49,061 nucleotides of DNA, from assembly GCA_016926505.1 (NCBI GenBank), contig JAFGOM010000093.1, positions 1 to 49,061 of the forward strand, in the 5' to 3' direction. Positions within the stretch are counted from its first letter, which is position 1. The number at the start of each line of letters is the position of its first letter. A model generated the notes under the pieces. That model was not told where the DNA came from. It ran no database searches and worked only from the letters and a program-made list of their open reading frames with translations. The position numbers were made by a program, and so were the translations under genes. The stretch is from Methanospirillaceae archaeon. Its GTDB lineage: Archaea; Halobacteriota; Methanomicrobia; Methanomicrobiales; Methanospirillaceae. This document shows positions 2,500 to 21,199 of the stretch, in pieces.

Positions 2500-3819
2500 A
2501 TGAAAGAACCGGATACGATACTCCTTGTCAGTTCCCGCCTGGACCCGGCAGGAACGCATATACATGATGCAATCTGCCACGAACTTAATCGCAATCCCAC
2601 CCATTTATATTCCTTCTGTCATTACCGATCTGATGAGCGTCTTCTTTACTGGAGATATGATCCTTTATTTTTTCCGGAAAATCCTCCTGATAGGATCATA
2701 TTTCTCTCGCGGCATGCCTCAAAGAATCCAAAACCTGTTCTTACCGTCCATGTGACCGGTAATTTCAAGGAGGCTGATCTTGGGGGACAACCACGTACTC
2801 TGACACCTGCAGATCCACCACTCATGTATGCCGTATTACAAAACCTTTTGCAGTATGCACCTCCCGGTTACGCGGTCTCCTATGAAGTGACCCATCACGG
2901 GCCGACCGGGTTGCCTCTTCCCTCTTTCTTTGTGGAGATAGGGAGCACAGAGACAGAATGGAATGATACTATTGCGGTTCATGCAGTTGCAAAAGCAGTT
3001 CTTCTTGCAAGGGAAGAGCTGGTTATTCCCATGGTCGGCTTTGGGGGAACTCATTATGCAACGCGTCAGACAGAAATCTCGTTTTTATCCCGTGCTGCTT
3101 TTGGTCATATCGTTCCATCCCGGCAGATTGATTCCATTGATCAGGATATGGTCAGAATGATGACAGAAATGACCCATGCAGAAGCGGCATACATTGATAA
3201 AAAATCACTTTCCGGAGAAGAGATAAAGAGGATAACCGCTCTTTTGAGTCAGATAAAACTTCCCGTTCTTGGACAGACCGATCTTTTTGCCCTGAAACAT
3301 CTTACTCTTCCGCAGTATACTGGCATTATTGCCATGGCACAAAGAGAAGTACCTGATTGTCAGGTACGGGTGCAGTCAATAGATCGTTGTTTAGAACCGG
3401 TTGTTATCAGGATTCCATCTTTGTTACTTGAACAGGCAGATAAGCTGGATCATGATAATCTGCTCGCATCTATCTCTGAGATGCCTGTTGCAACGCTCCG
3501 AAAGGGAGGTAAGAGTCTTTTGCCGGTATTTATTGTGGATAAAGAGGATGCTGGGATTGTCAGGCATGAATTAATACATCTCTGCATCTCAGTTGTACTT
3601 GCGAACACCGACGCATCGATAGACGGAGAAATTCTTACTATCAGACGTCTTAAGTTTGATCCAAAGAAGGCAGAGGAGTTTGGGATCCCTCCCGGACCTT
3701 TATACACGACCCTCCTGTCAGGGAAATCAGTCCTGTACGAAGGCAGGGAGATAACACCAGATATGGTCATGAAAACAATCGTAACCAGAATAGAGATCCC
3801 GGTGGAGAACGATGCATGA
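2500..3819 (+). CDS. dtdA: D-aminoacyl-tRNA deacylase with C-terminal extension
   Basis: This 439-residue protein is the archaeal type of D-aminoacyl-tRNA deacylase (DTD2/GEK1 family), which removes D-amino acids from mischarged tRNAs. The core domain covers about residues 1-275 and shows SRHAS at 70-74, [18 protein letters not shown] at 131-148, [10 protein letters not shown] at 182-191 and FGHIV at 201-205. Residues from about 285 to 439 form an additional domain. Its end, [16 protein letters not shown] (395-410) followed by [10 protein letters not shown], resembles the tail of RNase Z proteins. The stop overlaps the ftsZ start by ATGA, so the two are translationally coupled. No strong ribosome binding site precedes the ATG. 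Confidence 0.93.
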
Positions 3820-4907
3820 AATCAATCGTTGAAGAAGCATTATCACGGGCGAAGGAGGAATCCGAACACATTTCCAGGAATAATGATGACCTGGAGCAGG
3901 TTCTCCGGTCCTTAATGACAAGGATCACGGTAATCGGATGCGGAGGAGGAGGGTGTAACACGATACACCGCATGAAGGAAGAAGGTATCAAGGGAACTAC
4001 CCTGTATGCCATTAATACCGATGCCATGCATCTTGCAACCATCCACGCTGATGAACGGATTCTTATCGGGAGACAGAGAACAAGGGGATTAGGTGCAGGT
4101 TCCTATCCTCAGGTTGGTGAAGAAGCGGCACTTGAGAGTGAACATGATATCAGGCGTGCCGTTGATGATGCTGACATGGTTTTTGTTACTGCCGGGCTTG
4201 GAGGGGGAACCGGAACCGGTTGTGCACCTATCGTTGCACGATGTGCACGGGAAGAAGGAGCTCTCACCATTGCGGTTGTTACCCTGCCTTTTACCGCAGA
4301 AGGCAGTATCAGAATGGAGAATGCAAACGCAGGGCTGCAGCGTCTGCGTGATGTAGCAGATACCGTCATTGTTGTTCCCAATGATCGTCTTATGGAGGTT
4401 GTACCAAAACTCCCCCTGGCAGCTGCATTTAAGGTGTCTGATGAGGTACTGATGCGGGCAGTCAAGGGTATTACCGAGCTTATCACTGTTCCTGGTCTGG
4501 TAAACCTTGATTTTGCTGATGTCCGGACGGTTATGGAGAAAGGTGGCGTTGCGATGATCGGAATGGGTGAGAGTGAATCATCAGATAAGGCTTCAGATTC
4601 GGTAAAAAAAGCGATACGTTCACCTCTTCTTGATATTGACATATCCGGAGCAACAACTGCCCTGGTCAATGTTACCGGGGGTCCTGATATGACCATGGCA
4701 GAGGCTGAAGGAGTAGTATCAGCAGTCTCTGAACTGATTGATCCTGATGCACGGATTATCTGGGGAGCACAGGTAGATCCGACGATGCAGAATAAGATCC
4801 GGACTCTTCTTATCCTGACTGGTGTTCAGTCGCCACAAATATATGGGAGAAGTGAAAAAGATGTTCCCACATTACAAAAACATTTTGAGATCGACTTTTT
4901 ACGGTGA
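3816..4907 (+). CDS. ftsZ: cell division GTPase FtsZ
   Basis: This 363-residue protein is a tubulin-like GTPase that forms the division ring. After an about 35-residue charged N-terminal extension come GCGGGGCN (41-48) and the tubulin signature GGGTGTG (129-135), followed by the NDRLMEV region and the second domain. The length is normal for euryarchaeal FtsZ. The last residues, HFEIDFLR, may be the short conserved tail. It overlaps dtdA by four bases and is six bases from secE. The secE ribosome binding site GGTGAT lies across the ftsZ stop, pointing to one transcript. Euryarchaea often carry a second ftsZ, so whether this is FtsZ1 or FtsZ2 is left open. Confidence 0.97.
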
Positions 4908-19021: not shown

Positions 19022-19106
19022 GCGAGGGTAGCTAAGCCAGGCCAAAGGCGGCGGACTTAAGATCCGTTCTCGAAGGAGTCCGTGGGTTCGAATCCCATCC
19101 CTCGCA
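19022..19106 (+). tRNA. tRNA-Leu (anticodon TAA)
   Basis: The acceptor stem GCGAGGG (19022-19028) pairs with CCCTCGC (19099-19105), followed by discriminator A. The anticodon loop CTTAAGA gives anticodon TAA, which reads leucine TTA codons. The long variable arm (TTCTCGAAGGAG) is the class II form expected for leucine. The T-loop is TTCGAAT. CCA is not encoded. No intron is visible. Confidence 0.97.
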
Positions 19107-19307
19107 TCTGAATGGTTTTGGAGGACGTTTTTCCCTATTTCTATCAAATTTTCCTCTTTATTCATCTCTTTTCCGGTAATAATCAGTGATATCCCGGGGT
19201 TACATACGTCAGATGTGAGGATATCCCCATCGTCGCGTTCACTTTGTTCGCCCCTCATTCACGTAACCGTATATACAATTTATTCATAGTGTAATAAGGG
19301 CAGTTTT

Positions 19308-20345
19308 ATGACAGATACGCAGATCGATAATTCCGAATGTTCTGTAATCGGCTATGAAGAGGAGATAGAAACAATAACTGATGTCATAAAACGAATTGGA
19401 TCAGGTGCCCTTGAGCATATTGCTATCATCTCAGAACCCATGGGAGGGCGGACAACACTTGTTCATGAGATCCAGCGTCTTTATAAAGACCGGGTATATT
19501 ATTTCCCGCTGGAGTTTGTCATCACACAATCAAAAATTCCGGATTTTAGAGCATTGTCTGAGGATATAATCCTCATTGATAACTGCCAGTTTCTTGCAAC
19601 ATGGAAGATCGGAGGGTTTGATCTCTGTAATCATTTTCTTAATCTTTTGATCTCTTCGAAAAAACTCTTCGTGACTACATGGAATCTGTTCAGTTGGCAG
19701 TCCCTCTCTCAGGTCTTACATCTTGATGCCTATTTTCCAAAAATACTCCTCTTAAACAAAATGGATACACCGGTACTCAAGCAGGTGATACTTTCAAAAT
19801 ATAAAAAGGAAGAGATCCGGTTTCTCGATGATGGTGCTACCGAACGGTCCATGTTTTACTCGAAAATACACAAAGATGTCTCCCTGCCGTTTTACAAGGA
19901 GAAGATCTCTATTCCCTGGATAAAACTGAACTTTTCATTGATATTCTGGCAGGCACCCCGAAAAAACCGTGTTCAGATCTCAGTTGAGGATGTAATTTTT
20001 GAAAAGATAAACCGGATTGCGAGGGGAAATCCGGGAGTAGGCATCCTGCTTTGGGAAGAGGCCTTTAAGAGAAGGGAAATATCAATCGGTTCCATTCCTG
20101 AATATGCCTATTTCATCTCCCTTGACATCAATGAATCGTTTATTCTTTTTATTATCCTCTCTATGGAATGTATACATGAGATCGACCTGAAAGATGTTGC
20201 GGGTTCTGAGATAGATATTGCCCAGACACTGTATCGTCTTGTTCAGCAGGATCTCGTCATTGAGACAAACGGGTACTATCGCATCTCTCCTTTTGCCCTC
20301 GGACCGGTGATTGATTACCTGAAGAAGAACAGGAGGCTCTGGTAA
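19308..20345 (+). CDS. P-loop ATPase-like protein paired with MscS, unknown function
   Basis: This 345-residue protein resembles archaeal AAA-type ATPases. A Walker A-like EPMGGRTT stands at residues 43-50, but the usual Lys is replaced by Arg. A Walker B-like DIILID ends at 91. A Trp- and Phe-rich middle part is followed by a helix-turn-helix-like C-terminal domain (about 265-345, with IAQTLYRLVQQDLVIETNGYYRIS). No membrane helix is obvious. The MscS gene begins three bases after the stop, so the two are co-translated. A TATATA element near 19269-19274 lies 35 bases before the ATG; no ribosome binding site is seen, so the leader is short. It may sense or gate the channel, but that is inference. 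Confidence 0.75.
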   Translation: MTDTQIDNSECSVIGYEEEIETITDVIKRIGSGALEHIAIISEPMGGRTTLVHEIQRLYKDRVYYFPLEFVITQSKIPDFRALSEDIILIDNCQFLATWKIGGFDLCNHFLNLLISSKKLFVTTWNLFSWQSLSQVLHLDAYFPKILLLNKMDTPVLKQVILSKYKKEEIRFLDDGATERSMFYSKIHKDVSLPFYKEKISIPWIKLNFSLIFWQAPRKNRVQISVEDVIFEKINRIARGNPGVGILLWEEAFKRREISIGSIPEYAYFISLDINESFILFIILSMECIHEIDLKDVAGSEIDIAQTLYRLVQQDLVIETNGYYRISPFALGPVIDYLKKNRRLW

Positions 20346-20347
20346 TC

Positions 20348-21199
20348 ATGTCAGAGATCCCGTTCTCCAATGTTACCGCTGAAATTCCCATAAAAACGAT
20401 TGATGCGAATCTTATCATCTATATCTGTCTCATCATCATCATCGCGTACGTTCTTAACCGGTTTTTTGGTTATGTCCTGATGCAGGTATCTGAACGGATA
20501 GGCTCATACCGGACATCAGTAACCCTGATAATTCCGTTAGTAAAACTCCTTATCTATGCATTTGCTCTGTATTATATCATCATTGCAGTCATAGAACCTT
20601 CAATGACCCAGATTCTCGCATTTTCAGGATTTTTTGGAGCTGCAATCGGGTTTGGGTTAAAAGATCTCTTTTCTGATATTGTTGGTGGTGTCGTGATAAT
20701 ATTAGAAAAACCCTATCAAATTGGTGACAAAATCACTATTGGTGAAAAATATGGGGAAGTAAAAAATATTGGTATCCGTTCCACACGTATTGTGACTCCT
20801 GCCGATGAAATGGTGTCTATTCCGAATTTCAGCATCTTTAACCAGCCGGTTACCAGTGGAAATGACGGTGATCTTGCCATGATGGTTGAGATCGATCTCT
20901 TTATTCACCCGTGTTCTGATCCACAACCTGCGATGAAGATTCTCAAAGAAGCGCTTATCACTTCAAAGTACGTGATAATCTCAAAAAAATATCCGTATAC
21001 GGTTCTGCTCGAAGATTTTCCGTTTTACAAGCGGATACGTGCCAAAGGATATGTCAATGATCTCAGGCAGGAATTTGAGTTTACATCAGAAGTCACCAGG
21101 AGGGCATGGGTTGAGATGAGAAAGGCAGGGATAAAGCCCCCGTCAGTTATCCCATTATTATCTGATACCGATAATAATCGGAGAGAAAGCAAGGAGTAA
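20348..21199 (+). CDS. MscS-type mechanosensitive channel
   Basis: This 283-residue protein has three membrane helices (about residues 20-40, 58-82 and 88-112). The last one contains the small-residue pore segment SGFFGAAIGFGLKDLFSDIVGGV. The beta domain follows (EKPYQIGDKITIGEKYGEVKNIGIRSTRI), then the C-terminal alpha-beta domain. It would release solutes when membrane tension rises. AGGAGG at 20331-20336 is the ribosome binding site, inside the end of the ATPase gene. The protein is of standard small-MscS size with no extra sensor domain. Confidence 0.93.
   Translation: MSEIPFSNVTAEIPIKTIDANLIIYICLIIIIAYVLNRFFGYVLMQVSERIGSYRTSVTLIIPLVKLLIYAFALYYIIIAVIEPSMTQILAFSGFFGAAIGFGLKDLFSDIVGGVVIILEKPYQIGDKITIGEKYGEVKNIGIRSTRIVTPADEMVSIPNFSIFNQPVTSGNDGDLAMMVEIDLFIHPCSDPQPAMKILKEALITSKYVIISKKYPYTVLLEDFPFYKRIRAKGYVNDLRQEFEFTSEVTRRAWVEMRKAGIKPPSVIPLLSDTDNNRRESKE

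Follow-up and report, generated by a model that had tools for sequence, protein, structure and literature searches.

An MscS-type channel gene of Halobacteriota archaea is linked to a gene for a predicted AAA+/STAND-like protein with an often degenerate ATP site

A contig of a Methanospirillaceae archaeon (JAFGOM010000093.1 of assembly GCA_016926505.1; the whole stretch analyzed, 49,061 nt, is referred to as the window) carries 2 adjacent genes, A and B, which encode, respectively, a predicted AAA+/STAND-like protein with a degenerate P-loop and an MscS-type channel (Table 1). We propose, with a probability of roughly 0.6, that A, descended from an ATP-dependent switch and now often a pseudo-ATPase, is an obligate cytosolic subunit gating or assembling channel B. 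The 2 proteins would form one functional unit, with B supplying the MscS pore and A, made at the same time and place as B through translational coupling, docking on the cytoplasmic part of the channel, where it would set when B can open or whether B can assemble.

Results and discussion

Organization and co-inheritance of the gene pair

The span assigned to the 2 genes in the original prediction corresponds exactly to the 2 ORFs. The channel gene had been described as starting three bases past the stop codon of A; indeed, the spacer is 2 nt (TC) and the ATG of B is located at the third base past the stop. Such spacing is typical of the pair, with gaps of −4 to +3 nt in 70 of 70 measured loci, although start sites are predicted and taking the nearest start codon favors short gaps. 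Furthermore, at least 4 nt of the Shine-Dalgarno-like GGAGGTGAT are present near the end of A in 106 of 109 pairs, compared with 46% in a within-gene control. The C-terminal R[ML]VW of A is near-invariant (RRLW at 20331-20342 in the window), but its codons, AGGxTGGTGTGG in the relatives, double as the ribosome-binding site of B; its conservation may thus be at the DNA level, and it was set aside as a protein motif. The phylogenies of A and B have 48 of the 54 strongly supported A splits in common, with 3 conflicts, and the distances within the 2 proteins are correlated (r = 0.83, compared with no more than 0.17 in permutations). Judged from these sequence comparisons, A and B are expressed and inherited together as one unit.

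Table 1. Coordinates of the pair and of its recognizable elements in the window.
Feature	Position	Strand	Remarks
Gene A, AAA+/STAND-like P-loop protein with C-terminal winged helix, channel partner	19308..20345	+	345 aa, complete ORF
Gene B, MscS channel with three helices	20348..21199	+	283 aa, complete ORF; beta-domain 20663-20851
TATA-box-like element (archaeal) TATATACA, candidate single promoter of the pair	19270..19277	+	~38 nt upstream of the A start codon; read from sequence
Degenerate Walker A, S42 E P M G G R48 T T50	19431..19457	+	sequence, family comparison
Walker B-like strand, I87-I-L-I-D91-N92	19566..19583	+	sequence, family comparison; Asn at the catalytic Glu position
G102-G103-F104 motif of A, near-invariant	19611..19619	+	G103 109/109, F104 108/109
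T123-T-W125-N126...W130 motif, end of sensor-1 strand	19674..19697	+	T123 107/109, W125 108/109, N126 108/109, W130 109/109
G240-N-P242-G of A	20025..20036	+	family alignment; GxP-like
Winged-helix domain of A	20103..20330	+	predicted model; acidic in family, recognition helix neutral
AGGAGG, Shine-Dalgarno-like element for B	20331..20336	+	within the last codons of A (RRLW)

Distribution of the pair

Of 108 genomes of the family, 24 were shown by protein searches to contain A, with B directly after it in all 24. Profile searches extended A to 58 of the 232 genomes of the order (61 were listed before the removal of three ABC transporters) and to further families of the phylum. Conversely, a search of 231 genomes of the order at a threshold of E ≤ 1e-40 detected the B subfamily in 59. 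Across these 231 genomes, both genes co-occur in 57 and neither is found in 171, an association well in excess of chance; the 3 one-sided genomes (A only in G208, B only in G040 and G123) are all cut by contig ends. A single-sequence scan of genome contigs with A gave no match, and a profile scan of 84,980 species then yielded 95 relatives, of which 80 were kept; the latter scan was seeded by a short peptide pattern, and absence outside the matched groups is therefore unproved. All 80 kept relatives come from archaea or archaea-labeled metagenome bins, namely, Methanoregula, Methanolinea, Methanocorpusculum, Methanoculleus, Methanocalculus, Methanosarcina, Methanolobus, Methanomethylovorans, Methanothrix, Methanocella, Methanoperedens, ANME-1, ANME-2, and haloarchaea. 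Weak matches in 4 genomes and a second weak match in a fifth, which are ABC transporters or look like them, were not counted, and neither was a match in G403, a Cdc6-like ATPase.

In every fetched locus with enough downstream sequence B comes after A, with one exception in which the 2 genes are separated by an insert. In this Methanocalculus-type locus (L188, positions 2849-3997, from G119), a TnpB-type gene (382 aa) lies antisense to both A and B, which are still open. Several A copies, including ones from Methanolobus and Methanosarcina, are broken up over different reading frames, which may reflect decay or poor sequencing, and in one of these loci (L178) B is broken up as well. Several Methanoregulaceae loci contain a second, distantly related MscS gene within approximately 2 kb of the pair.

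The original prediction had called for a search for the pair in other archaeal genomes, and had named as evidence against itself either confinement to the one strain or orthologues with a normal Lys unlinked to MscS. Neither was found; the pair occurs across Halobacteriota and is always linked, so that the proposed regulatory module is well supported as a two-gene unit. Taking strict co-occurrence, coupling, and co-evolution together, the simplest account would be that A joins B in a stoichiometric complex and there licenses or gates it. Obligate linkage as such would also arise if A were a dedicated regulator or served in assembly. AAA+ relatives frequently act as remodeling machines, and the A-then-B order, translational coupling, and obligate pairing would all suit a dedicated chaperone which assists assembly or membrane targeting of B and is not a gating subunit. 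We consider this alternative unlikely, given that the source genome, which has one A gene, encodes one further MscS channel elsewhere that has no A of its own, and that remodeling requires ATP turnover, which is probably beyond many members of the A family.

Predicted structures of the 2 proteins

The identification of B as an MscS channel in the original prediction was borne out by a match to PF00924 (67.3 bits, cut-off 20.2; E = 1.3e-18), which corresponds to the MS_channel beta-domain, and by profile matches to the structures of MscM, MscS, and MscK (E about 1e-20 to 1e-23), with profile positions 16-267 aligning to MscS-type structures. Prediction and alignment place three transmembrane helices, the third of them (TM3) kinked, before the beta-domain. 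In a fused A-B model of a Methanolinea pair, helices are predicted at 359-389, 391-420, 425-438, and 444-459, with TM3 modeled at low confidence. The read-through A-stop-B chain (25 paired rows) has ordinary MscS secondary structure and a pTM of 0.66, with no confident joint fold.

None of the Pfam, NCBIfam, or PADLOC models matches A above its threshold. The window protein scores 16.5 bits against AAA_16, under the cut-off of 32.6, whereas nSTAND3 weakly matches nine other members (best E-value 6.4e-7) and TrmB weakly matches two. The AlphaFold2 model of A, obtained with 72 relatives (pLDDT 84.8, pTM 0.80), displays an AAA+ core fold with a C-terminal helical/winged-helix part, and Foldseek retrieved RuvB first (E = 3e-8), followed by the NLR RPP1, Cdc6/Orc1, and Avs4. 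The GNPG at residues 240-243, which we liken to the GxP motif of STAND proteins, and the winged helix follow the P-loop domain in the STAND manner. Thus, A is predicted to consist of an AAA+/STAND-like domain and a winged helix, and the helix-turn-helix-like C-terminal domain of the original prediction gains support, in the form of a winged helix, from the model and its similarity to RuvB.

The winged helix, the structural matches to the DNA-binding RuvB, Cdc6, and Orc1, and the weak TrmB matches could indicate that A regulates transcription of the channel gene by binding DNA. However, the winged helices of the family are acidic, with a median net charge of −5, and have a neutral recognition helix, features which weakly favor protein contacts over DNA; moreover, a transcriptional regulator would need neither translational coupling to its sole target nor constant co-loss with it. 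We regard such a role as highly improbable.

The nucleotide-binding site of A

The presence of Arg at the position of the Walker A Lys, the central observation of the original prediction, holds in the P-loop as read from the sequence. In addition, Ser replaces the first Gly of GxxxxGK[ST], and the segment SEPMGGRT thus departs from the Walker A consensus at both positions. The Walker B-like segment had been described as kept; this is correct for Asp91 but not for the adjacent AAA+ catalytic Glu, which is Asn92, so that IILIDN deviates from hhhhDE. The second acidic residue is missing in most relatives, and in nearly all of them the AAA+ Glu position is occupied by Asn, Asp, Gly, Arg, or His.

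Among 109 distinct pairs, residue 48 is Arg in 46, Lys in 36, Gln in 11, and a different residue in 16 (Glu in 8, Ile in 3, Ser in 2, and Val, Asp, and Leu in 1 each). The Arg, the conservation of which had been proposed as a check, is thus a constant feature of the clade to which the window protein belongs but not of the whole family, where it accounts for only 46 of the 109. On the A tree, built with the P-loop columns excluded, there are at least 8 changes between Lys and non-Lys, or 3 when the starred branches alone are counted, and Arg and Lys interchange several times. Near-canonical P-loops occur among the Lys types, for instance, GLPYSGKST in Methanocalculus and GYPLSGKST in Methanocella, and their presence in members of Methanocella, Methanocalculus, and Methanosarcinales makes it likely that the canonical P-loop has been lost repeatedly.

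The P-loop Lys makes contact with the beta- and gamma-phosphates, and the Ser/Thr that follows it forms a bond with the Walker B Asp (PMC9599734). Both S/T49 and D91 are retained in all 36 K-types, 26 of 46 R-types, none of the 11 Q-types, and 3 of the 16 others, these being raw counts that ignore relatedness; with relatedness taken into account, the joint loss of Lys48, S/T49, and D91 is not significant (3-4 independent pairs only, low power). It is plausible, from these residues, that about one third of the sampled members keep a Mg-nucleotide site. The R-type protein of the window retains Thr49 and Asp91, as well as Pro242, and the first 2 residues make weak nucleotide binding possible. Nucleotide sensing, as originally suggested for the module, is plausible where Lys is present and doubtful in the types with Arg, Gln, or Glu.

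If A were a working ATP-dependent switch in all lineages, with Arg and even Gln or Glu being tolerated, binding and release of ATP by A would open or close the channel. The near-canonical P-loops of the Lys types, the interchange of Arg and Lys on the tree, and the residues retained in the window protein are in line with this possibility. Nevertheless, Q-types never keep both partner residues, 20 of the 46 R-types are without at least one of S/T49 and D91, and the AAA+ Glu position is substituted in nearly all members, which makes a universal ATP switch rather unlikely.

Across all 109 sequences, conservation reaches 98% or more at eight positions (A39, G103, F104, T123, W125, N126, W130, and G240) and 99% or more at six of these (G103, F104, W125, N126, W130, and G240). 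The core that they outline, GGF/TxWN...W/G240, hardly varies in any of the P-loop types. Given that Lys48, S/T49, and D91 vary while the GGF/TxWN...W/G240 core stays, the common target of selection in A is probably not ATP turnover. We infer that A and B form a physical complex in which A has a gating or assembly role. A would have its origin in an AAA+/STAND-type ATP switch and, where the site is degenerate, as in the lineage of the window, would most likely be a non-hydrolyzing (pseudo-ATPase) regulator that uses the conserved core in place of ATP turnover. The signal to which the pair responds may be osmotic or ionic, as judged solely by analogy with the MscS family. The decayed ATP site in many lineages, that of the window included, suggests an ion channel under the control of a retired ATPase-like protein.

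Genomic neighborhood and mobility

In the window, the pair follows a tRNA-Leu gene (anticodon TAA, 19022-19106) approximately 200 nt before A and lies beside asnB-gatCAB. The pair is absent from this site in nine related genomes that have the asnB-gat block, frequently along with the same tRNA, and some of these genomes carry the pair elsewhere. Integration at the upstream tRNA-Leu was considered and rejected, as a search for a duplicated tRNA end in the window was negative; a tRNA is located within 600 nt of the pair in only 5 of 107 loci. Three Methanocorpusculum pairs are likewise downstream of a tRNA-Leu (GAG). In the A tree, the Methanocorpusculum pairs nest in the Methanoregulaceae clade, and the rows closest to them in the B tree belong to the same group, suggesting joint transfer of A and B. 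One pair, with a 4-nt overlap, resides on a plasmid of the haloarchaeon Salinirubellus (NZ_CP147842.1, 439907-441708), where it is annotated as "hypothetical protein" and "mechanosensitive ion channel family protein". A viral origin of the pair was dismissed: viral contigs and phages yielded no relatives, and the fold matches in BFVD are generic AAA ATPases.

No third neighboring gene is conserved in more than 7 of 83 loci. The two-gene format, patchy distribution, varied neighbors, signs of transfer, and the plasmid copy, together with the fold matches to RPP1 and Avs4 and the weak nSTAND3 matches in nine members, are in keeping with A being a STAND-type infection sensor and B a membrane-permeabilizing effector. 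Yet the window proteins have no PADLOC match, and those of the relatives are weak and scattered, none being better than 0.00085. There is no recurrent defense neighbor, A has no long C-terminal sensor repeats, and the pair was not found in phage or viral contigs; furthermore, STAND defense proteins normally require the P-loop. A defense function is thus quite improbable, and the defense-type gate entertained in the original prediction found no positive evidence, window A lacking a PADLOC match and the pair a conserved neighbor.

Comparison with known systems

No paper on such a pair was found among open-license papers. The parts are of known kinds, MscS and AAA+/STAND; as far as checked, their obligate pairing, in which the ATP site decays repeatedly, is undescribed. 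Tentatively, and at somewhat less than even odds, the pair could represent a new class of archaeal channel, in which an MscS pore is accompanied by an obligate AAA+/STAND-like regulatory subunit that is encoded by its own gene and has turned into a pseudo-ATPase repeatedly. Control of the channel would then have passed from ATP to a different signal, such as ionic strength, crowding, another ligand, or a partner protein. MscS channels are usually seen as self-sufficient tension valves; if our proposal is correct, one branch of them, in methanogens, methane oxidizers, and haloarchaea, would be gated or licensed from the cell interior. The partners provide a natural Lys/Arg/Gln/Glu P-loop series with which the need of the channel for ATP is directly testable.

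Among AAA+ proteins, RuvB and Cdc6/Orc1 are the best fold matches of A, sharing the AAA+ domain, lid, and winged helix, and a Cdc6-like ATPase is also a weak sequence match; unlike them, A has neither the AAA+ catalytic Glu nor a clear DNA-binding surface, and its gene context is unrelated. With STAND NTPases (nSTAND3, NB-ARC, Avs), A shares the P-loop domain and winged helix, the GxP-like GNPG, the weak nSTAND3 similarity, and the fold matches to RPP1 and Avs4, but most members have a degenerate P-loop and Walker B, and the same chain contains no sensor repeats or effector domain. To our knowledge, all known MscS-type channels work without a separate ATPase-fold partner. B resembles the channels of PF00924 in its three-helix pore part, beta-domain, and alpha/beta vestibule, and differs from them in that its subfamily never occurs without A in complete sequence. 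In the bacterial cyclic-nucleotide-gated (bCNG) channels of the MscS superfamily, a cyclic-nucleotide-binding domain fused to the channel serves as the cytosolic module; the Pfam scan detected none in window A or B. According to Caldwell et al. (2010), as cited in PMC4560390, bCNG channels join an MscS-type pore to a cytosolic ligand-binding module. The pair described here likewise combines an MscS-type pore with a cytosolic module, but the partner is a separate AAA+/STAND-like protein.
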